The notes beneath the pieces are model-generated. The model worked only from the letters and a program-made list of their open reading frames with translations. It had not been told where the DNA came from and made no database searches. Source: Actinomycetospora succinea (GTDB lineage Bacteria; Actinomycetota; Actinomycetes; Mycobacteriales; Pseudonocardiaceae). Taken from it: a stretch of DNA of 64,000 nt. This document shows positions 6,384 to 16,059 of the stretch, one piece after another (position 1 is the first letter of the stretch; the number at the start of each line of letters is the position of its first letter). Both the position numbers and the translations under genes were made by a program. The stretch is taken from positions 124,001 to 188,000 of the forward strand of contig NZ_SNYO01000011.1 in the NCBI RefSeq assembly GCF_004363095.1, given 5' to 3'.

Positions 6384-7055
6384 TCAGTGCATCAGCAGCA
6401 TCAGGGCCATCCCGGCCCCGGTGACGGCCTGGCAGCCGAGCTGGACGGCGGGGGTGTCGACGGCACGGCCGACGCGGGTGCCGAGGCCCACGGATCCGCC
6501 ACCGCCGGCCGTCACGGCGACGGTCGTGGTGGAGCGCACGAGCGTGCCGACGGTCAGGACGGTGTGCAGGATCAGGTAGATCGCGAGGGCGAAGGAGACG
6601 GCCTGGAGCGCGAGCGGCGACCCGCCGCCGCCGTGGCCCGCGTGCTCGCCGGCGCCCATCCCCGCCATCGCCCCGCCGCTCGGGACCATCGCCAGGTACA
6701 TGACGGCCATCGCGGCGTTGCTCAGCAGCAGGTGGGTCGGGTGGGCAGCGCAGCGGTCACCGCCGATCGCCGAGCCCATCGCCCGGCCCCGCGCGCCCAG
6801 CGCGACCAGGCGCACCGCCCACACCGCGCCCACCGCCCCGAAGGCCACGGCGCCCGCGACCGGCGGCACGAGGTCCATCGTCGCCGGCAGCACCATCGCC
6901 GCCATCGCGACGCTCATGACGACGTGGTTCACCTCGGACGCCGCGGCGGCACCCTCGTGCCGGCCTCGACGGCGCCACAGGCTCACCACGCACAGCGCGG
7001 CCGCGGTCAGGAACGCCGCGGAGAGGAATCCCGCGACGGAGGTCGGGAGGGTCAC
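6384..7055 (-). CDS. DUF5134 membrane protein
   Basis: A 223-residue integral membrane protein with about six helices. The pattern EVNHVVMSVAMAAMVLP near residue 40, HPTHLLLSNAAMAVMYLAM in the middle and a Met/His/Gly-rich loop (MAGMGAGEHAGHGGGG) are features of DUF5134 proteins, whose function is not established. The conserved His and Met residues would suit binding of a soft metal such as copper, which is inference, but the neighbouring sigma/CtaG/copper-ATPase region makes it attractive. The GTG at 7055 overlaps the stop of the preceding Cys-rich gene (GTGA), so the two are translationally coupled. Confidence 0.8.
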   Translation of the reverse strand: MTLPTSVAGFLSAAFLTAAALCVVSLWRRRGRHEGAAAASEVNHVVMSVAMAAMVLPATMDLVPPVAGAVAFGAVGAVWAVRLVALGARGRAMGSAIGGDRCAAHPTHLLLSNAAMAVMYLAMVPSGGAMAGMGAGEHAGHGGGGSPLALQAVSFALAIYLILHTVLTVGTLVRSTTTVAVTAGGGGSVGLGTRVGRAVDTPAVQLGCQAVTGAGMALMLLMH

Positions 7056-7336
7056 CGGGCGCCCGCGGCACGCAGCGGAGCGGAGCTGCCGCCGGCAACA
7101 CCGAGGAGGTCGTCGAGGACACCGTCGCGGGCGTCGTCGACGATCACGGCAAGCTGCGCGAGGCTCATCCGGATCGAGGAGCCGAAGTCGTCGGTGATGA
7201 CCACGCGGCGCTCCTCGTCCGCCGCCGGGTCGAGGTAGAGCTCCGGGCAGCCGCACGAGCACTGTCCGCAGAACGTGGTGACGTGCTGCAGGCCGCTCGT
7301 GGGCAGGGCCTCGTGGTCCGGCTCGCGGTCCTTCAT
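7052..7336 (-). CDS. Small protein with a dense cysteine cluster
   Basis: A 94-residue soluble protein not recognised as a named family. Residues about 22-29 read FCGQCSCGCPE, giving CxxCxCxC, a plausible metal or Fe-S site. The next part (RRVVITDDFGSSIRMSLAQL) looks like a small beta/alpha domain. The ATG at 7336 has GGAGG 6 bases upstream. It is the first gene of a two-gene unit with the DUF5134 gene and is divergent from the sigma factor gene. A role in handling copper or zinc is a guess from the cysteines and the neighbourhood. Confidence 0.7.
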   Translation of the reverse strand: MKDREPDHEALPTSGLQHVTTFCGQCSCGCPELYLDPAADEERRVVITDDFGSSIRMSLAQLAVIVDDARDGVLDDLLGVAGGSSAPLRAAGAR

Positions 7337-7641
7337 GGCGGTCCTCCGTCGGGATGGATGTCCGTGACCAGCGGGGACGGTACGGCGGGCGTTCCGGCCG
7401 CACACCCCTCACCTCGCCGCCGGAGGGTGGTGTGCCCGGACGGCGGAGCGTTCTCAGGCGCAGGCCCGCTCCTTCTCAGGAGAGGCCTCCTCGGGTGCCC
7501 GACCGGACGAGGGCCTACCGTCGGGGCAGCACGGTAGGCACCGCCCGCGCGGCCGCGGAGCCTCGTTGTCGCGACGGTCACGGCCGGGAACTGCGGGGCC
7601 TCGCGGGACGACCACGTGCGAGGACGGAGAGGGAGCACCCG
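7337..7641. other. Divergent intergenic region upstream of sigC
   Basis: The 305 bases separate the Cys-rich gene (minus) from sigC (plus). They contain the autoregulatory SigC-type promoter at 7586-7613, a small hairpin (CTCCT-TCTC-AGGAG near 7469-7483) and the sigC ribosome-binding region (GGAGAGGGAG). No promoter resembling the SigC pattern was found facing the minus-strand gene. Confidence 0.6.
7586..7613 (+). promoter_or_regulatory. SigC-type ECF promoter upstream of sigC
   Basis: GGGAAC (7586-7591), 17 bases, CGACC (7609-7613). The same -35/-10 pair with exactly the same spacing recurs at three other unit starts in this region, so this is probably an autoregulatory ECF promoter. Its predicted start of transcription lies about 20 bases before the GTG of sigC. 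Confidence 0.75.
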
Positions 7642-8193
7642 GTGGACGACGCGAGGATCACCGCGCTGGCGCTGCGCGCCCGGGAGGGCGATCGCGCCGC
7701 CGCGGGGGAGTTCGTCGCCGCCACCCAGCACCAGGTCTGGCGCCTGCTCGGCCACCTCGCCGACCCGGGCGTCGCCGAGGAGCTCGCCCAGGAGACCTAC
7801 GAGCGCGCGCTCGGCTCGCTGCGCCGCTACCGCGGTGACGCGCCCGCCCGCAGCTGGCTGCTCTCCATCGCCCGCCGGGTCGCCGCGGACCACCTGCGCC
7901 GGCGCGCCCGCCGCCCGGTCAGCCCCGCCGAGCCGGCCGAGGAGGACCGGCCGCTGGGACGCGCCCCGCAGCCCGACCCCGCCGAGTCCGCCGCCGTCCG
8001 CGACGCGCTCGCCGCCCTCGACGCCGACCGCCGCGAGGCGTTCGTCCTCACCCAGATGATCGGTCTGAGCTACGAGGACGCCGCCGAGGTGTGCCGGTGC
8101 CCGATCGGCACGATCCGCTCGCGGGTCGCCCGTGCGCGCGCCGACCTCGTCGACGCCCTCGGCGAGCCGGGCGCCGAGCGGCGCTCCGGGTGA
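7642..8193 (+). CDS. sigC: ECF RNA polymerase sigma factor, SigC type
   Basis: A 183-residue group IV sigma factor. Region 2 covers the first about 85 residues (EELAQETYERALGSLRRYRG...ARSWLLSIARRVAADHLRR) and region 4 the last about 70 (ALDADRREAFVLTQMIGLSYEDAAEVCRCPIG, then TIRSRVARARADL). Both the sequence and the CRCPIGTIRSR segment closely match mycobacterial SigC, as recalled from family knowledge. In Mycobacterium tuberculosis SigC is linked to copper acquisition genes; the neighbours here (CopD-CtaG, copper ATPase) agree. The GTG start is preceded by GGAGAGGGAG. A promoter of the type repeated in the region lies just upstream, suggesting autoregulation. Confidence 0.9.
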   Translation: MDDARITALALRAREGDRAAAGEFVAATQHQVWRLLGHLADPGVAEELAQETYERALGSLRRYRGDAPARSWLLSIARRVAADHLRRRARRPVSPAEPAEEDRPLGRAPQPDPAESAAVRDALAALDADRREAFVLTQMIGLSYEDAAEVCRCPIGTIRSRVARARADLVDALGEPGAERRSG

Positions 8194-8198
8194 TCGCC

Positions 8199-8226
8199 GG
8201 GAACTCGGGCGACCCCCGCGGCGACC
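8199..8226 (+). promoter_or_regulatory. SigC-type ECF promoter of the anti-sigma/ctaG unit
   Basis: GGGAAC (8199-8204), 17 bases, CGACC (8222-8226). The -10 ends 8 bases before the ATG at 8235, so the transcript would be leaderless or nearly so. The 14675-14702 promoter has the same 8-base gap to its GTG. Confidence 0.75.
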
Positions 8227-8234
8227 GGTAGGGC

Positions 8235-8978
8235 ATGGCCAGCTCCACCGACTGCGACGCCGCCCGGGAGGCGATGTCGGCCGCGCTCGACGGCGAGGCC
8301 GACGCCGTCGAGCTCGCCCGGGTCGACGCGCACCTCGACGGCTGCGCTGCCTGCCGGGCGTGGCGGCGCGACGCGGCGGCCGTGACGCGCCGCGCCCGCA
8401 CCGGGGTCGTGGTCGGCGGGCCCGACCTCGTGGACCGCGTCGTCGGCGCCGCCCCCGGTCCGCGGGTGCGCTGGTGGGGCGTCTCGGCGCGCGTGGGGCT
8501 CGCCGCCGTCGGGCTGGCGCAGGCCGTGCTCGGCCTGGTGGGGCTGCTCGGGGCGACGAGCCACGCCGCCCACACGGACGACCCGCTCATGGTGCTCGGC
8601 GCGGGCATGGCGCACGCGGCGCACGAGAGCGCGGCGTGGAACCTCGCGCTCGGCGTGGCGTTCGTCGCCGGGGCCGTGTGGTGCCGGCACCTCGCGGGCC
8701 TGATGCCCGTGCTCGGCGCGTTCATCGCGGTGCTCGCCGTGCTCTCGGGCATCGACCTCGTCGCCGGGCGCGTCGAGCCCGCCCGCGTCGTGTCGCACCT
8801 CGTCGTCGTGGCGGGCTTCCTGCTCGCGCTCGCCGTGGTGCGCACCGCGCCCCGTCACGGTGCCGGGCCCTCCCCCGGGGCGCGGTGGCGCCCCCGTCCC
8901 ACCACCCGCAGTGCCGCGCCCGACGGCCCGGGCGCCACCACCCCGACCCCCTGGGAGCGTGAGTCCGACGTCGCCTGA
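8235..8978 (+). CDS. Zinc-finger (zf-HC2) membrane protein, probable anti-SigC factor
   Basis: A 247-residue protein. The N-terminal about 45 residues form a ZAS zinc-binding anti-sigma domain: Cys7, then His33-x3-Cys37-x2-Cys40. About four membrane helices follow (near residues 83-105, 135-152, 155-178 and 185-203), then a cytoplasmic Pro/Arg-rich tail. A histidine-bearing external loop (SHAAHTDDPL...HAAHES) could sense a metal or redox state, which is inference. Lying 41 bases after sigC, it is the natural candidate to hold SigC at the membrane. It has its own SigC-type promoter and overlaps the following gene by 20 bases. Confidence 0.8.
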   Translation: MASSTDCDAAREAMSAALDGEADAVELARVDAHLDGCAACRAWRRDAAAVTRRARTGVVVGGPDLVDRVVGAAPGPRVRWWGVSARVGLAAVGLAQAVLGLVGLLGATSHAAHTDDPLMVLGAGMAHAAHESAAWNLALGVAFVAGAVWCRHLAGLMPVLGAFIAVLAVLSGIDLVAGRVEPARVVSHLVVVAGFLLALAVVRTAPRHGAGPSPGARWRPRPTTRSAAPDGPGATTPTPWERESDVA

Positions 8979-10890
8979 CCGCTCGGCCGTCCGCGCCGAT
9001 CCCGTCCGCGTCAGCCCCGTCCTCGTCGTCTCCCTGCTGGTCGCCGTCGGGATCACGGTCGTGTTCGCCGTGCTGCGCGGCGGCCTGCCGTTCGCCGCGC
9101 TCGGGGTCAGCGGGCCGCCGGTCGAGGTGGCGGTGGCGACGCCGCTGGCCCGCCTGGTCACCCTGCTGGCGGCGGGCGCGACCGTCGGCGGCCTGGTCGG
9201 CGCGGTCGTCGCGCGGCCGTCGCGCGACGGCGAGCTCGGCGCGCAGGCGTACGCCGCGGTGCGCTGGGTGGGCGCCGCGGCCGCCGTGTGGGCGGTCGGT
9301 GCGCTGGTCGCGGCCGTGCTCACGGTGCTGGCGGGCACCGGCAGCGACCCGCGCATCCTCACCGCGCCCGACGCGTTCCTCACCTCCGCGGCCGCGCTCG
9401 AGGAGCCGGCGGGGTTCCTCGTCGCCGCCGTCCTCGCCGCCGTGGTGGCCGCGCTGTGCCGCCTGACGCTGTCGTGGCGCACGGCGGCGGGCGCGCTGCC
9501 GCTCGCGGTGCTCGGGGTCGTCGCGCCGGCCGTCACCGGGCAGGTCGCGAGCGCGCGCAGCGGCCACGACATCGCCACCGACGCCGCCGCGCTGGCCGCG
9601 GTCGCCGCCGCGGTGTGGCTCGGGCTCGCGCTGCTCGAGACCGTGCAGCCGGGGCGGGCGCTCGCCGCCCGCGCCCGCCCGATCGCCCTGGTCGCGGCGG
9701 GCACGGCGCTCGCCGGCACGGTCGTCGCGGAGGCGGTCCTCGTGCGCGGCGCGTGGTTCTCCGGGGTCCACGGGCCGCTCGCCCTCGTCCAGCTCGCCCT
9801 GCTCGCCGGCGCGGCGGTGCTCACCCTGCGCGGCCGGGTGCCGGGCCCGTCCGTCGCCGCGCTGCTCGTGCCCGCCGTGGGTCTCGGGGCGCTGCTGGCC
9901 ACCGAGCTCCCGCCCGCCCTCACCGCGCCCGTGCTCACGACGCTCGAGGGGATCCAGGACGCGGCGCTGGGCTACCGCCTCGATCCCCCGACGCTCCTCG
10001 GGCTGCTCGGTCCCGGCCGGCTCAACCTGCTCTGGGCCGTCGTGGCCGTGGTGCTCGCCGGCGCGTACCTGGCCGGGGTGCGGCGGCTGCGCGCCCGCGG
10101 CGACGCCTGGCCGCCCGGGCGCACGGCGTCGTGGCTCGGGGCGTGCGCACTGCTGCTGTGGGCGACGAGCTCCGGGCTCGGCGCGCACTCGATGGCCACG
10201 TTCAGCGTGCACATGGGCGTGCACATGATCCTGTCGATGGGCGTGCCGATCCTGCTGGTGCTCGGCGGTCCCGTGACGCTGGCGCTGCGCGCGCTGCCGA
10301 CCGGCGACACCGGCCCGCGGGCGTGGCTGCTCTCGCTGCTCGACGCCCCGCTGACCCGCCTGCTGACCCACCCGCTCGTCGCGCTCGCCCTGTTCGTCGG
10401 CTCGTTCTACGCGCTGTACTTCTCGGCGCTGTACGCCACCGCGCTGCCCTTCCACTGGGCGCACCAGCTGATGTTCCTGCACTTCATGGTCACCGGCTCG
10501 CTCTTCTTCTGGCCGATCATCGGTGTCGACCGCGCGCCGCGCCCGCTGCCCCACCTCGGGCGCCTCGCGATGCTGCTCGCGTCGATGCCGTTCCACGCGT
10601 TCTTCGCCGTCGCCCTCATGAGCACCGACGTGGTGATCGGCCAGGCGTTCTTCGGCCAGATCGCCCTGCCCTGGGTGCCCGACCTGCTCGCCGACCAGCG
10701 CCTCGGCGGCGGCATCGCCTGGGCCTCGGGCGAGGCGCCGCTGGTCGTGGTGCTCCTGGTGCTGCTCGTGCAGTGGTCGCGCGCCGACAGCCGCGACGCC
10801 ACCCGCCGCGACCGCCACGCCGACCGTGACGGCGACGCCGAGCTCGCCGCCTGGAACCGGATGCTCGCCGACCTCTCCCGCGGGCGCTGA
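8959..10890 (+). CDS. CopD-CtaG fusion membrane protein (cytochrome oxidase assembly / copper transport)
   Basis: A 643-residue protein with many membrane helices. The N-terminal half is a CopD-like copper-resistance domain (its ALPLAVLGVVAPAVTGQVASARSGHD segment). The C-terminal half is a caa3_CtaG domain recognised by HSMATFSVHMGVHMILSMG, a segment beginning LFVGSFYALYFSALY, HQLMFLHFMVTGSLFFW and IGVDRAPRPLPH. His and Met residues facing the membrane are presumed copper ligands. Such fusions (for example Rv0102 of M. tuberculosis) are tied to copper delivery. The GTG at 8959 has GGGAG just upstream and overlaps the end of the anti-sigma gene, so the two are coupled. Confidence 0.88.
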   Translation: MSPTSPDRSAVRADPVRVSPVLVVSLLVAVGITVVFAVLRGGLPFAALGVSGPPVEVAVATPLARLVTLLAAGATVGGLVGAVVARPSRDGELGAQAYAAVRWVGAAAAVWAVGALVAAVLTVLAGTGSDPRILTAPDAFLTSAAALEEPAGFLVAAVLAAVVAALCRLTLSWRTAAGALPLAVLGVVAPAVTGQVASARSGHDIATDAAALAAVAAAVWLGLALLETVQPGRALAARARPIALVAAGTALAGTVVAEAVLVRGAWFSGVHGPLALVQLALLAGAAVLTLRGRVPGPSVAALLVPAVGLGALLATELPPALTAPVLTTLEGIQDAALGYRLDPPTLLGLLGPGRLNLLWAVVAVVLAGAYLAGVRRLRARGDAWPPGRTASWLGACALLLWATSSGLGAHSMATFSVHMGVHMILSMGVPILLVLGGPVTLALRALPTGDTGPRAWLLSLLDAPLTRLLTHPLVALALFVGSFYALYFSALYATALPFHWAHQLMFLHFMVTGSLFFWPIIGVDRAPRPLPHLGRLAMLLASMPFHAFFAVALMSTDVVIGQAFFGQIALPWVPDLLADQRLGGGIAWASGEAPLVVVLLVLLVQWSRADSRDATRRDRHADRDGDAELAAWNRMLADLSRGR

Positions 10891-10896
10891 GCACGC

Positions 10897-10924
10897 GGGA
10901 ACCGGACGGCCCCGCGACACGACC
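10897..10924 (+). promoter_or_regulatory. SigC-type ECF promoter of the DsbA-like gene
   Basis: GGGAAC (10897-10902), 17 bases, CGACC (10920-10924), lying in the 89-base gap between the CopD-CtaG stop and the DsbA-like start. It gives a 5' leader of about 45-50 bases that ends in GAGGAGG. Confidence 0.75.
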
Positions 10925-10979
10925 TGAACACGCGGCGCTGCACACTCGGTCGGCGCCACCGACACGAGGAGGACCCCGG

Positions 10980-11708
10980 ATGCCCTCGGGCCCGAAGCGC
11001 ACGACGACCACGAAGCGCACGACGTCCCGGACGCCGACGATCGTGGCGATCGCCGTCGTGGTGCTCGTCGCGGCCGTGGTGTTCGGCGGCGTGCTGCTCT
11101 CCGGCAACGGCTCGCAGGACGCGGCGGGCGCCGGCATCCCGGTCACCCCCGCGCCCGCCCAGTACACGACGAGCGTCGCCGACGGCGTCGTCACCGCCGG
11201 TGGGCCCGCGCCGCACACCCTCGACCTCTACGAGGACGCGCTCTGCCCCGCCTGCCAGGCGTTCGAGCAGCGCGACGGCGACCGCATCGCCCAGGCCGTC
11301 GCGGCCGGGCGCCTGCAGGTCCGCTACCACCTCGTGAACCTGCTCGAGCAGCGCTCGAACCCGCCCGGCTACTCGTCGGCGGCCGGCAACGCGATGATCT
11401 GCGCGGCGGAGAACAACGCGTTCCCCGCGGTGCACACCAGCCTCTACGCCGCCCAGCCGTCCGAGGGCGGGCGCGGCTACGACACCGGCCAGCTCGTCGA
11501 CCTCGGGCAGCGCGCCGGCGCCGGCCCGGGCTACGCCGACTGCGTCACCACCGGCCGCCACGTCGGCGAGGTCAACCTCAACTTCCACAACGCCTCGTCC
11601 GACCCGGCGCTGCTCAACCAGGGCTCCTTCGGCACGCCGACCGTCGTCCTCGACGGCCGCCTCGTCCAGCCGGGCTCGCCCGATCTCGACCCGGTGCTCG
11701 CCGGCTGA
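10980..11708 (+). CDS. Membrane-anchored DsbA-like thiol oxidoreductase
   Basis: A 242-residue extracytoplasmic thioredoxin-fold protein: a Thr/Lys/Arg-rich cytoplasmic start, one membrane anchor (residues about 20-42) and a DsbA-like domain with the active site Cys89-Pro-Ala-Cys92 (DALCPACQAF) and the cis-proline loop FGTPTVVLDG near the end. It would insert or shuffle disulfides in exported proteins, with the VKOR protein encoded at 13989-14666 as its likely re-oxidant. Start: ATG with GAGGAGG 7 bases before it. It has a SigC-type promoter of its own and ends in a large hairpin. Confidence 0.85.
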   Translation: MPSGPKRTTTTKRTTSRTPTIVAIAVVVLVAAVVFGGVLLSGNGSQDAAGAGIPVTPAPAQYTTSVADGVVTAGGPAPHTLDLYEDALCPACQAFEQRDGDRIAQAVAAGRLQVRYHLVNLLEQRSNPPGYSSAAGNAMICAAENNAFPAVHTSLYAAQPSEGGRGYDTGQLVDLGQRAGAGPGYADCVTTGRHVGEVNLNFHNASSDPALLNQGSFGTPTVVLDGRLVQPGSPDLDPVLAG

Positions 11709-11717
11709 CTTCTTCGC

Positions 11718-11782
11718 GAGATCAGGGGCGACGTCACGCACCCCGCGCGGCCCGGAAGGTGCACCACGTCGCCCCTGATCTC
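11718..11782. terminator. Long inverted repeat between convergent DsbA-like and copper-ATPase genes
   Basis: Seventeen bases at 11718-11734 (starting GAGATCAGGGGCG) pair perfectly with 11766-11782; inside the 31-base loop GCACC and GGTGC can pair further. It lies directly after the DsbA-like stop and just before the ATPase stop at 11800 and would terminate both. Confidence 0.75.
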
Positions 11783-11799
11783 TGCGCGAGGGCGGGCGG

Positions 11800-13992
11800 T
11801 CAGCGGCCCCGCAGGCGCAGGCTCGAGGTCACGACGAGCAGCGACGACAGCGCCATCGCCAGCCCCGCTAGCAGCGGGTTGAGCAGCCCGGCGACGGCGA
11901 GCGGGACCGCGGCGACGTTGTAGCCGAACGCCCAGCCGAGGTTCACGCGGATCGTGCGGTGCGTGGCGCGCGCGAGCGCGAGGGCCTCGGGGACGGCGGT
12001 GAGGTCGTCGCGCACGAGGATCACGTCGGCGGCGTCGAGGGCGACGTCGGTGCCCGTGCCCACGGCGAGGCCGAGGTCCGCGGCCGCGAGGGCGGGGCCG
12101 TCGTTGACGCCGTCGCCGACCATCGCCACGACCGCACCGGCGGCGCGCCGCGAGGCCAGGAACGCGAGCTTGCCCTCGGGCAGCACGCCGGCCACGACCT
12201 CGTCGATCCCCACCGCGTCGGCGACGTGCCGCGCCGCGCGCTCGTGGTCGCCCGACAGCAGCACGGTGTGCAGGCCGGCCTGCCGCAGGGCCGCGACGGC
12301 CGGGGCCGCGCTGGGCTTGACGTCGTCGGCGAGCACCACCGCCCCGTGCACCGCGCCGTCCCAGCCGACCGCGACGACCGTGTGCCCTTCCTCCTCCGCG
12401 GCCGCCCACTCGGCCGACAGGGACTCCGGGACGGCGCCGACCAGGTCCGGGCGCCCGACGGTGACGCGCACTCCGTCGACGACCGCCCGCGCGCCCAGCC
12501 CGGGCAGTGCCTCGAAGTCCGCGGGCTCGCCGGGAGACGCCGCCGCCACGATCGCCGCCGCGATGGCGTGCTCCGAGCCCCGCTCCACGGCGGCCGCCCG
12601 CTCCAGGACGAGGTCACCCCCGAGGACGGCCACGACCGCCATCCGCCCGGTGGTCAGCGTCCCGGTCTTGTCGAGCACCACGGTGTCGACGCGGCGGCTG
12701 GTCTCGAGCGCGTGGTGGCCCTTGAGGAAGATGCCGCGCCGGGCGCCGCGACCGGAGGCGACGACCATCGCCATCGGCGTCGCCAGCCCCAGCGCGCACG
12801 GGCAGGCGATGACGAGCACCGCCAGCGCCGGCGAGAACGCCCCCGCCGCCCCGGCGCCCGCCACCCACCAACCCAGCGCGGTCGCGAGAGCCAGCACCAC
12901 CACCGCCGGCACGAACCACGCCGAGATCCGGTCGACGAGGCGCTGCACGTCGGCCTTGTCGGCGCGCGCGTCCCGGACCAGCCGCACCATCCCGGCCAGC
13001 GCCGTCGCCTCGCCGACCGCGGTCGCCTCGACCACCAGGCGCCCCGAGACCGCGACCGTGCCGCCGACCACCGCGTCGCCGACGCCGGCGTCGGTCGGCA
13101 CCGGCTCGCCGGTGAGCATGCTGCGGTCCACCGGCGAGCGGCCGTCGACGACCCGCCCGTCGGCGGCGATCTTCTCGCCGGGCCGCACCACGAACCGCGT
13201 CCCGACGGCCAGCTCAGAGACCGGCACCCGCGTCTCGGTCCCGTCGTCGGCCAGCACCGCGACGTCGCGCGCCGCGAGCCGCGCCAGCGCCGCCAGCGCG
13301 TCGCCCGAGGCCCGACGCGCGCGGCGCTCGACGTAGCGCCCGGCGAGCACGAACGTCGTCACCCCAGCCGCGACCTCCAGGTACACGGGCCCGGCCGGGT
13401 GCAGCAGCAGCTCCCACGTGCTCGCCGCCGGCGCCGGGGCGACCCCGCCCAGCAGCGCGCCGAACGACCACACCGTCGCCGCCACGATCCCCAGCGAGAC
13501 CAGCGTGTCCATCGACGTCGTGCCGTGGCGCAGGCCCGCGAGCGCACGCCGGTGCAGCGGCCACGCCGACCACCCGACGACCGGCGCCGCGAGCGCCGCC
13601 AGCAGCCACTCCCAGCCGGGGAAGCGCAGCGAGGGCACCGCGGTCATGACGAGCGCGAGGTCAGCGACCGGCAGGAACAGCGCGGCGGCGACGACCAGGC
13701 GGCGCCAGAGGTCGCGCAGCTCGGCGTCCTCGGCCGGGGCGTCCTCCGGCTCGTCGGCGTCGACGGGACGCGCGGGCCGCGCCGTGTAGCCGAGCTTGGC
13801 GACGGTGTCGACGACGGTCGCCGTCGTGACCTCGGGCGAGTCGATGACGACGCGGGCGCTGTCACCGGCGAGGTCGACGGTCGCGGCGACGCCGTCGAGG
13901 CGGTTGAGCCGGCGCTCGATCCTCGACGCGCAGGCCGCGCAGGTCATGCCGCCGATGTCCAGGTCGAGGACGGCGGCAGCCGGAGCGCTCAC
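11800..13992 (-). CDS. Copper-translocating P1B-type ATPase
   Basis: A 730-residue heavy-metal pump. An N-terminal HMA domain carries GMTCAAC. Six to eight membrane helices follow, with the transport motif Cys397-Pro-Cys399 ([15 protein letters not shown]). The actuator TGE is in MLTGEPVP, the phosphorylated Asp441 in [13 protein letters not shown] is the nucleotide-domain HP-like signature, and the hinge is [10 protein letters not shown]. These identify a Cu(I)-type ATPase; transport direction is inferred only from family. The GTG start overlaps the VKOR stop (GTGA). In M. tuberculosis the CtpB-type pump beside Rv0102 is SigC-linked, which parallels the promoter found here. Confidence 0.92.
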
Positions 13993-14666
13993 AGGCCCAC
14001 CAGCCCGGCGGCCCAGGCGGGGAAGGTCGCGACGATGGCGACGACGATCGTGACGTACCAGGCCGCGAGCCCCCAGCCGTGGTGCCGCAGCGGCGCCGGC
14101 GCACCACCGAGGGTGCCCGCGCGCAGGTTGTGCACGGTGACGAACCAGAACATGGCGATCACCGCGACCCACGCGACCATGCACCACGGGCACAGGGCGT
14201 GGATCACCGCGAGGCTCTGGACGATCAGCCAGTGGATGAACAGCAGACCCGCGGTCGTGCCCGCCTGCAGGCTCCACCAGGCCCAGCGGGGCAGCGCCAC
14301 GGCACCGAGCACCAGCGCCCCCGCGGCCGCGGCGACCGGGAAGGTCAGCAGGCCGATGACCGGGTTGGGGAACCCGAGCAGCGCCGCCTGCGGTGTCCGC
14401 ATGATCGTCCCGCAGGACAGCACCGGGTCGATGCTGCACGACGGCACGAAGGTCGGGTCGGCGAGCAGCGCGAGCTTGTCGATCAGCAGGACCAGCGAGA
14501 CGACCGCGCCGGTCAGGCCGCCGACGAGCAGGACGGCGCCGACACCCCGCGCCGGGACGCGACCGGGCGCCTCGACCTCCGGCGCGTCGGCGACCTGCGT
14601 GTCCACGCCCCGATCGTCCTCCCGCCCGACGGGAAAGGCCTCGGTGGGGGCTGTTCGGCTGACCAC
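13989..14666 (-). CDS. Vitamin K epoxide reductase (VKOR) family protein
   Basis: A quinone-linked oxidase that regenerates DsbA-type enzymes. The 225 residues hold about five membrane helices and both redox pairs: Cys77/Cys85 in [10 protein letters not shown] (loop pair) and Cys159-Pro-Trp-Cys162 in [10 protein letters not shown] (active site). FPNPVIGL and [14 protein letters not shown] are family landmarks. The GTG at 14666 is chosen because it lies 8 bases after the -10 of a SigC-type promoter, the same geometry as the anti-sigma gene. A second GTG at 14606 with GGAGGA upstream would give 205 residues. It is the first gene of a two-gene unit with the copper ATPase. Confidence 0.87.
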
Positions 14667-14674
14667 GTCGTGCT

Positions 14675-14702
14675 GGTCGTCGCGGGGATCGATGCGGTTC
14701 CC
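14675..14702 (-). promoter_or_regulatory. SigC-type ECF promoter of the VKOR/copper-ATPase operon
   Basis: On the minus strand GGGAAC (14702-14697), 17 bases, CGACC (14679-14675). The spacing is identical to the three plus-strand copies. It abuts the terminator hairpin of the upstream operon (14703-14750), so the -35 begins directly where the hairpin ends. Confidence 0.75.
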
Positions 14703-14750
14703 GCACGTGAGTGAAATGGGTCGCCAGGGCGACCCGTTTCACTCACGTGC
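14703..14750 (-). terminator. 23-bp hairpin terminating the six-gene glycan operon
   Basis: Bases 14703-14725 pair with 14728-14750 along 23 bp with a single G-T wobble and a two-base centre (left arm begins GCACGTGAGTGAAATGGG). The stop codon of the secreted hydrolase-like gene (14743-14745) lies inside the right arm. No T-tract follows. Confidence 0.75.
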
Positions 14751-16059
14751 GCAGCATCGCCGCCACGTAGTCCGCGAGCGTCACCCCGGAGCGCGGCGTG
14801 TGCAGGTCCTCCTCGAACGCGAGGGTGAACGCCGCCAGCCCGCAGTTCCGCGCGTACCCCGGGGCCCGGCGCACCTGCTCGGCCTCCTGGTCGGAGTCGG
14901 CGGCGCCGCCCGTGGTCTCGCCCGGCGGACCGGGGTTCTCGCCGACGACCGGCAGCCCGGCGCGCGCGGCCTGCGCGCGGGCGAAGCGCAGGTTCGACCA
15001 CCGCTCCACGCGCACCGTCGGGTCGAGCGCGACGGCGGGGTCCTCCGGCCGGCACGTGTCCTCGGGCGGGTCGAGGGCCCGCGCGCGCACGGCGGTGGCG
15101 TCGTCGACCGACGTCAGGTCGACGACCACGGGGCCCGGCACCGCGGCGGCGATCCCGGGCATCGCGGCGACGTGGTCGAGGCCGCGGTGCAGCGATCCGT
15201 CGCGGTCGCCGTGCCCGTCGAGCAGCGAGCCGACCGCCACCGACCGGTCCGCGGGCAGGACGCCGCGTCCCGGTACCGGGAGGTGCACCTCGCCGGCGAA
15301 CCCGGCCCCGCGCAGCACCCGGGCCTGCGCGGCGAGCGCCTCGACCAGCGCGCCCGAGTACCAGCCGAACCACCGCCCGGCGTCCACCGCCGTGACCGCG
15401 CGGCCCTCCCACTGCGCGCTCCCCGGCGCCCAGCCCGGCAGCGGTGACGGCTGCTGGCCGGGCGCGAGGTCCCGCCCCGTCTGCGCGGGCGCACCGAACG
15501 CCCACCACGACGTGACGCCGTACCCGGACTCGTGCGGGCCCGGGTAGCCGATCTCGCCGGCCGCGCTCGTGCCCACCCGCACGCCGGTCAGCCGCGTCGC
15601 GGGGACGGCGGCGACCAGGCGGGTGAGGTAGTCGTCGAGGGCGGCGCGGGGCGCGGCGGCGAACACGAGGTCGACGCCGCCGGTGCGGGCGACACCGCCG
15701 TGCTGGTCGCGCAGCAGGGCGTCGGGCAGGTCGCGCACCCACGACGGCGGGTACTGCGCGCCCGACCCGAGCACCACGCGCATCCCGGCGTCGAGGCACC
15801 GCGTGACCCGCGCGGCGAGACCCGCCGCGGCCGCCGGCTCGAACGCTCCGGGCCGGGGCTGCAGCCGGTCCCAGTGCGCGTCGACGACGGCCACCGACAG
15901 CCCCGCGCCGCGCTGCGCGGCGAGCCGGTCGGGGGCGCAGGCCGAGTCGACGACGCCCCAGGCGGGCTCGACGGGCGCCGGGTCGGCGTACGACGGGCAC
16001 GCCGCGCCGGCGAGCAGCAGGACGCCGGCGAGCCCCGCCCCGAGCGCCCGGAACCTCAC
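14743..16059 (-). CDS. Secreted glycoside-hydrolase-like protein, paralogue B
   Basis: A 438-residue exported protein, full-length paralogue of 2082-3407. The signal peptide has a hydrophobic core (LGAGLAGVLLLAGAACPSYA); the Cys in LLLAGAAC might also allow lipidation. Conserved elements are HWDRLQPRPGAF, GSGAQYPPSWV, RVGTSAAGEIGYPGPHESG with a candidate acid/base Glu, SWWAFGAP, and VGENPGPP with a candidate nucleophile Glu, followed by a shared C-terminal segment (YARNCGLAAFTLAFEEDL). Fold and activity are inferred. The GTG overlaps the acyltransferase stop (GTGA), and it is the last gene of the operon, which argues for a role in processing the glycan made by that operon. Confidence 0.75.
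   Translation of the reverse strand: MRFRALGAGLAGVLLLAGAACPSYADPAPVEPAWGVVDSACAPDRLAAQRGAGLSVAVVDAHWDRLQPRPGAFEPAAAAGLAARVTRCLDAGMRVVLGSGAQYPPSWVRDLPDALLRDQHGGVARTGGVDLVFAAAPRAALDDYLTRLVAAVPATRLTGVRVGTSAAGEIGYPGPHESGYGVTSWWAFGAPAQTGRDLAPGQQPSPLPGWAPGSAQWEGRAVTAVDAGRWFGWYSGALVEALAAQARVLRGAGFAGEVHLPVPGRGVLPADRSVAVGSLLDGHGDRDGSLHRGLDHVAAMPGIAAAVPGPVVVDLTSVDDATAVRARALDPPEDTCRPEDPAVALDPTVRVERWSNLRFARAQAARAGLPVVGENPGPPGETTGGAADSDQEAEQVRRAPGYARNCGLAAFTLAFEEDLHTPRSGVTLADYVAAMLRT

Follow-up and report, generated by a model that had tools for sequence, protein, structure and literature searches.

A stretch of 64,000 nucleotides from Actinomycetospora succinea (assembly GCF_004363095.1, contig NZ_SNYO01000011.1, positions 124,001 to 188,000 of the forward strand), hereafter the window and the source of all coordinates given without a locus number, contains a gene cluster around a SigC-like extracytoplasmic function (ECF) sigma factor, in which four units are each preceded by the motif GGGAAC-N17-CGACC. 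Judged from its sequence, the cluster is probably a small gene set for copper and protein disulfide bonds that is run by a copper-linked regulator.

Gene families were assigned with Pfam and NCBIfam profiles, the scores being compared with the family cut-offs. The sigma factor gene (7642-8193, plus strand) encodes 183 residues with matches to PF04542 and PF08281 above cut-off, and is followed on the same strand by the gene for a membrane anti-sigma factor (8235-8978; PF13490), which comprises a zf-HC2 domain at residues 7-41 and four hydrophobic helices. The next plus-strand gene (8959-10890) overlaps the anti-sigma gene and specifies a protein with multiple transmembrane segments and a C-terminal Caa3_CtaG domain (PF09678, 278.1 bits), which by its name we take to serve copper assembly of the oxidase. 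This protein had been labelled CopD-CtaG in a first-pass annotation of the sequence, but the CopD part found no support: the N-terminal half, presumed to be CopD-like in that earlier reading, gave no Pfam match at E 0.01, and Pfam yields the Caa3_CtaG domain only. Further downstream, a DsbA-like thiol oxidoreductase (10980-11708, plus strand; PF13462, 44.7 bits, above cut-off) displays a CPAC motif in its translation. On the minus strand, the cluster is completed by VKOR (13989-14666; PF07884, 129.7 bits, cut-off 27.5), by family a disulfide-generating membrane protein and, as the single match of the genome search, the only one found in this genome, and by a copper-type P1B ATPase (11800-13992), whose gene follows that of VKOR with a 4-base overlap. 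The ATPase features an N-terminal HMA domain (PF00403, 49.7 bits, cut-off 24.8) and matches copper-translocating and exporter-type models (TIGR01511, 492.8 bits, cut-off 397).

Promoter sites in the window and the genome

The exact motif occurs at 7586-7613 (plus strand) before the sigma gene, at 8199-8226 (plus) before the anti-sigma gene, at 10897-10924 (plus) before the DsbA-like gene and at 14675-14702 (minus) before the VKOR-copper ATPase operon. These are the four positions and the complete set of full matches that the first-pass annotation had reported, and dinucleotide shuffles of the window contain 0.13 matches on average, none of 100 reaching four. The sites share boxes and spacing with sites beside SigC-like genes elsewhere, and it is in this sense, not by published SigC letters, that they are termed SigC-type promoters here. 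The claim that they lie directly upstream of their units was also borne out, the distances to the start codons being 28 nt for sigma (GTG 7642), 8 nt for the anti-sigma factor (ATG 8235), 55 nt for the DsbA-like protein (ATG 10980) and 8 nt for VKOR (GTG 14666, though a GTG further downstream is also possible). Since the anti-sigma and VKOR genes begin only 8 nt past their sites, leaderless messages are predicted for both, while the site before the sigma gene predicts autoregulation.

Varying the spacer from 14 to 20 bases gained no site beyond the four in the window. With one mismatch permitted, 7 sites were counted against 3.8 expected, a number reached by 9 of 100 shuffles, so that only the four exact sites stand out. 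The genome-wide search that had been called for at the outset returned 16 exact copies in 6.47 Mb compared with 4 for a reversed control pattern, four of them forming the 7.1-kb cluster; on the other side, 9 of the remaining 12 lie within predicted coding frames, and for the last 3, which fall outside such frames, the filter gave no same-strand gene. The relaxed pattern GGGAACY-N16-CGAC occurs at 18 places in the genome (6 for the control). A larger regulon in this genome was considered and rejected: of the 14 relaxed places outside the cluster, 8 fall within predicted coding frames, while at the remaining 6 the filter gave neither a covering frame nor a convincing gene start.

Divergent from the sigma gene, the minus strand carries genes for a small Cys-rich protein with the sequence CGQCSCGC (7052-7336) and for a DUF5134 membrane protein (6384-7052; PF17197). 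No exact site was found in the window upstream of either gene; elsewhere the motif does precede homologs of both, namely of the small Cys-rich protein in locus L111 and of DUF5134 in 6 other loci. Moreover, near-perfect long palindromes are located at gene ends in the window, at 14703-14752 (fold z -8.1) and 11708-11790 (fold z -4.5), the former touching the -35 box of the VKOR promoter.

Recurrence of the sites in related bacteria

Within a genus set of 18 genomes, every genome holds a homolog of the sigma factor; 9 (window included) form a close clade and 8 a sister group, the last being a fragment at the edge of a contig. In all nine close-clade genomes the orthologous place before the sigma gene is occupied by GGGAAC-N17-CGAC[CG], and the anti-sigma site is present at its orthologous place in 9/9 close-clade and 3/8 sister genomes. 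The orthologous sets were built from sites found by pattern, so that full identity of the boxes is built in and recurrence at the same place is what counts. Mean spacer identity amounts to 75% for sigma (9 sites), 44% for anti-sigma (12), 56% for DsbA (8, the L037 site with AGGAAC being omitted) and 48% for VKOR (8). Sites that recur at the same places while their spacers diverge appear to be real, and together with the shuffles and the spacer counts this recurrence rules out a chance origin of the four. In comparison with relatives, the four have the look of conserved promoters that serve a SigC-like sigma factor. The 20 bases abutting the sigma promoter upstream (7566-7585) are 89% identical over nine sequences including the window, which is above the value of the spacer, and may constitute a second regulatory site.

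VKOR was found in 17 of the 18 genomes, and all 17 orthologs (window included) carry GGGAACY-N16-CGAC, counted from 333 nt before to 26 nt after the extrapolated start. The VKOR gene is distant from the sigma gene in G002, G005, G009, G014 and G017, by 0.93 Mb in the single-contig genome G005 and on a separate contig in the other four, and retains the site in all five; G004 and G011 were not counted as unlinked, as the VKOR gene lies on another contig but the contig ends fit assembly breaks. The unlinked genomes are good evidence that such sites function at a distance from the sigma gene. In the same five genomes the CtaG, DsbA, ATPase and VKOR genes sit together (5/5), and a different anti-sigma gene with a Cys-rich tail begins, by coordinates, 8 nt past a site (5/5). 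The DsbA site is present in 9/9 close-clade orthologs, window included, once in the form AGGAAC, and in 0/7 paralogs; in G012 the DsbA ortholog lies in two frames. Placement of the copper genes, DsbA and VKOR under SigC-like promoters is thus supported by comparison.

Beyond the genus, the neighbourhoods of SigC-like sigma genes were taken from GTDB species genomes for the 80 best of 593 relatives; in these 80 loci (1.35 Mb) GGGAAC-N17-CGAC occurs 120 times, while spacers of 12-16 and 18-22 bases yield 3-16 each. In total, 175 sites were pooled from the window, the 18 same-genus loci and the 80 wider loci, and the frames downstream were clustered by similarity. The largest cluster (34 rows) consists mostly of anti-sigma factors and includes at least two mis-called frames (L046 8113 and L052 8141); it is followed by clusters of 13 sigma factors, 9 copper ATPases, 7 PepSY_TM and 6 DUF5134 proteins. 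The copper-ATPase cluster spans mycobacteria, Gordonia, Amycolatopsis and Streptomyces, the motif standing directly before the ATPase gene in mycobacteria and Gordonia. The motif also precedes a Nocardia CtaG protein and its Actinoplanes relative, as well as a PPE gene that is divergent from a fused SigC in the mycobacterial loci L087 and L101, and in G009 and G014 two more sites stand before genes that are PepSY_TM-like by eye. From the 175 sites, 91 were picked by hand according to gene type, leaving out 84 that comprise chance hits, Streptomyces genes and unclear cases; their consensus is C-GGGAAC-Y-N16-CGAC-Y, with the free positions agreeing in 74, 89 and 77 of 91. Exactly 8 nt separate the site from the start codon in 26 of the 91, starts being chosen by a simple script that was wrong in some instances (the sites at L046 8861 and L050 8367 lie 8 nt before Cys-tail genes).

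The sigma factor and its anti-sigma factors

Assignment of the sigma factor to the ECF type is supported by profiles, with scores of 46.9 bits for PF04542 (cut-off 24), 51.2 for PF08281 (25.7) and 72.5 for TIGR02937 (42.9). The SigC identity proposed by the first-pass annotation held only at the level of a SigC-like family: the NCBIfam SigC equivalog PRK09649 scores 157.8 bits, under its cut-off of 219, and the best NCBIfam model, PRK12535, likewise remains under its own (177.1 against 290); the same SigC model gives 365.1 for the fused mycobacterial sigma of locus L101. The closest PDB match is 2o7g, the N-terminal domain of SigC (84 bits), with other ECF sigma factors close behind. In a tree whose rows were picked by similarity, the sigma factor groups with other SigC-like rows; its genus forms a supported clade that branches close to the base of the actinobacterial rows, separate from mycobacterial SigC, and two Pseudonocardia loci are placed outside this clade. 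No locus of the genus gave a match of 300 bases at 80% identity or more to the named loci of the comparison, and placement in Pseudonocardiaceae is borne out by same-family loci that are up to 95% identical to an Amycolatopsis locus. Because of the missed SigC cut-off and the separate clade, SigC-like is the proper name. The genome encodes a second SigC-like sigma factor of the same genus clade (contig C2, 207663; locus L053), at whose locus only a near-match promoter, TGGAAC-N17-CGACT, was found. The neighbours of this second sigma (L035, L053) comprise a PepSY_TM-like gene, a DUF5134-like gene and a Cys-tail anti-sigma gene.

The zinc anti-sigma domain of the window's anti-sigma factor is well supported (PF13490, 42.2 bits, cut-off 22.2), and its residues C7, H33, C37 and C40 are kept in 29/29 aligned homologs. 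Hydropathy places the helices near residues 87-105, 132-150, 159-177 and 184-202, and with the zinc domain inside, H113, H127, H130, E131, D174 and H188 are predicted at the outer face. H127, E131, D174 and H188 are each conserved in 28 of the 29 homologs, H113 in 22, and position 130 is His in 17 and Asn in 9. This set of His, Glu and Asp residues looks like a metal site and would make the protein a candidate copper sensor, copper being our reading of the likely ligand. DUF2275 (PF10039) matches 7 of the 29 aligned homologs and gave no match to the window protein at E 0.1.

Of 148 mycobacterial genomes searched, 41 carry an in-frame fusion between SigC and a homolog of this anti-sigma factor, 38 of them without a stop; L085, L087, L101 and L110 are among the fused loci. 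The anti-sigma part is split over two frames in one Mycobacterium genome; in two more, the sigma stands alone in the stretch read while an interrupted anti-sigma match occurs elsewhere in each. The notion that the fusion is new was dropped, as sigma-anti-sigma fusions are already reported for ECF36, where they are listed under proteolytic activation (PMC8999054). The ECF36 fused sigma KLO31890.1 of Mycolicibacter heraklionensis has an N-terminal anti-sigma part with multiple transmembrane segments, homologous to the window's anti-sigma factor (PMC8999054); the window differs in that sigma and anti-sigma are separate genes, each with a site of its own.

Another type of anti-sigma factor is soluble and ends in a metallothionein-like tail, CGCaasCgCGCqxGxxCRC; several loci have its gene next to genes of the PepSY_TM-like and DUF5134 kinds. 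Such Cys-tail genes are found at L046:8897-9202, L048:7175-7474, L050:8403-8780, L051:6088-6390, L052:8866-9171, L053:5011-5325, L054:10831-11130 and L060:8524-8925, and in L291. An order-wide search of 298 genomes gave matches in 191, almost all of them confined to the zinc domain; among 30 readable loci from this search the Cys tail is present in 3, all of them from Pseudonocardiaceae, the only family with the tail among the loci read.

A proposed link between copper supply and disulfide formation

We consider it quite probable that the cluster's SigC-like sigma factor recognises the four sites as promoters and that copper delivery and disulfide formation are raised together upon copper shortage. 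In this mechanism, the sigma factor would drive its own gene, the anti-sigma gene followed by that of the CtaG-type copper assembly protein, the DsbA-like oxidase gene and the VKOR-copper ATPase operon. The cytoplasmic zinc domain of the anti-sigma factor would hold the sigma factor, while its four-helix membrane part with the conserved outer-face His, Glu and Asp residues is the likely sensor; scarcity of extracytoplasmic copper would then free the sigma factor, and copper delivery and disulfide formation would rise together. The purpose is probably the assembly of extracytoplasmic copper proteins such as a terminal oxidase. Recognition of the sites by this sigma factor and copper starvation as the signal are deduced from relatives, whereas copper binding by the anti-sigma factor and oxidase assembly as the goal are suggested by anatomy only.

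In Mycobacterium tuberculosis, SigC prevents copper starvation and drives the ppe1-nrp operon and ctpB (PMC7924339), and chalkophores keep a copper oxidase working (PMC12140626), from which a supply of copper to the oxidase is plausible here as well (PMC12140626, PMC7924339). The window resembles M. tuberculosis SigC (ECF36) in the sequence family of the sigma factor and in having a copper ATPase as target, and it resembles the relatives at the mycobacterial loci L087 and L101, where the same motif stands before a PPE gene. On the contrary, M. tuberculosis SigC has no known anti-sigma factor, and sigC is monocistronic and not autoregulated (PMC7924339), whereas the window offers a separate membrane anti-sigma factor, a site before the sigma gene, and CtaG, DsbA and VKOR in the set. 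The same paper refers to an earlier chromatin immunoprecipitation study that predicted SigC elements of nearly the same sequence upstream of ctpB and of ppe1 (PMC7924339), so that the promoter is probably known in outline; among the papers listed in literature searches, none gave GGGAAC for SigC.

Several observations weigh against the proposed reading. In the sister group the sigma-gene site is present in only one of eight genomes (L049), no site was seen before the CtaG gene, and the DsbA site is absent from all eight orthologs. Furthermore, one of five VKOR paralogs (L232) also fits the loose pattern, and the motif is missing from all 30 best-scoring VKOR matches in other genera of the family, in whose genomes the presence of a SigC-like sigma was not checked. 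To these are added the SigC score below cut-off, the second SigC-like sigma of the genome, which makes cross-talk possible, and the anti-sigma homologs of L070 and L096, which are devoid of the outer-face pattern H..[HNR]E. With the VKOR loci of other genera and the sister-group DsbA genes lacking sites, the disulfide link appears to be an addition specific to this lineage. VKOR control across the whole family was therefore rejected on the 0/30 result; as predicted from the sites, it is a trait of this genus. The inclusion of DsbA and VKOR in the regulon, as originally suggested, hence stands within bounds, namely for VKOR throughout the genus and for DsbA in the close clade, and does not extend to the sister group for DsbA or to other genera for VKOR.

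One competing explanation regards VKOR and DsbA as passengers: the true target would be the copper ATPase, VKOR being merely first in the operon, without any deliberate coupling of copper and disulfide formation. As VKOR heads the operon, the ATPase may indeed be the older target, and an ATPase match lies behind VKOR on the same strand at 16 of 17 genus loci, a further point against joint control; the motif precedes the ATPase itself in mycobacteria and Gordonia, and the negative VKOR loci of other genera fit as well. We nevertheless hold this explanation to be rather unlikely, because DsbA has a site of its own in all nine close relatives, the only VKOR found in the genome is the one under the site, and the copper and disulfide genes stay together in all five genomes where they are distant from sigma. 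In addition, the exceptional VKOR locus of G012 (an assembly 84% complete) carries the site with no ATPase match behind it.

Joint control upon copper shortage is also opposed by the idea that the regulon answers copper excess, the ATPase serving efflux. Its fit to copper-translocating and exporter-type models agrees with this, as does the existence of the copper-activated ECF sigma factor CorE of Myxococcus, likewise tied to copper (PMC8999054). In CorE the copper sensor is a C-terminal extension of the sigma factor itself, and CorE is counted among sigma factors without an anti-sigma factor (PMC8999054). Among relatives, the one studied best is M. tuberculosis SigC, whose role is in copper starvation (PMC7924339), and the same motif precedes a PPE gene (L101, L087), of the kind that heads a SigC-driven operon, and a TauD enzyme (L096), which leaves a response to excess improbable. 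That a different ECF sigma factor, for example the second SigC-like one, reads the sites is least probable, for although ECF promoters share a GGAAC-type -35 element and the paralog's locus has its near-match, the sites are grouped around the window's own sigma gene, whose promoter is one of them, and the pattern tracks SigC-like loci across genera.

A broader version of the preferred reading, which we put forward tentatively and with more doubt than confidence, holds that two designs of copper-sensing anti-sigma factor control SigC-like sigma factors, namely the four-helix membrane type with a conserved outer-face copper site of His, Glu and Asp and, in some Pseudonocardiaceae, the soluble type with a metallothionein-like tail; shortage would empty the site, free the sigma factor and turn on copper delivery and oxidative folding. 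As many mycobacteria have the four-helix anti-sigma fused to SigC, and some carry it interrupted or lack it next to the sigma, this design would also supply the missing sensor of SigC.

For M. tuberculosis, the sensing of copper deficiency and the lack of a known anti-SigC factor are both stated as open questions (PMC7924339). The window provides a simple version with separate genes, a candidate sensor and four clean promoters, so that the question of SigC sensing becomes testable in another actinobacterium. The findings suggest common switching of copper supply and disulfide formation within one genus, and they point to a need, the assembly of extracytoplasmic copper proteins. Mycobacteria possess a VKOR and DsbA-like pair for oxidative folding similar to that of the window, and this pair is not known to be controlled by copper or SigC.

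The promoter pattern may also help to find copper-scavenging pathways in other actinomycetes. In Streptomyces, three gene sets occur downstream of the motif, in clusters of 10, 9 and 8. At L099:2486-5583, L108:6675-7883 and like loci, the motif precedes a recurring set of CoA-transferase, acyl-CoA dehydrogenase and MFS genes, which possibly represents an unknown copper-scavenging pathway. In Streptomyces locus L116 (4791-7169 and 9657-13022) it is located before a periplasmic binding protein (PF01497), and this cluster also has an ATPase-like gene whose beginning is HMA-like, as well as a gene homologous to that of the small Cys-rich protein. In Actinophytocola oryzae (L096:8298-9269), finally, the motif stands before the gene for the TauD-family enzyme with a carrier-protein-like frame adjoining; the enzyme may be of the isonitrile type and the genes possibly those of an isonitrile chalkophore.

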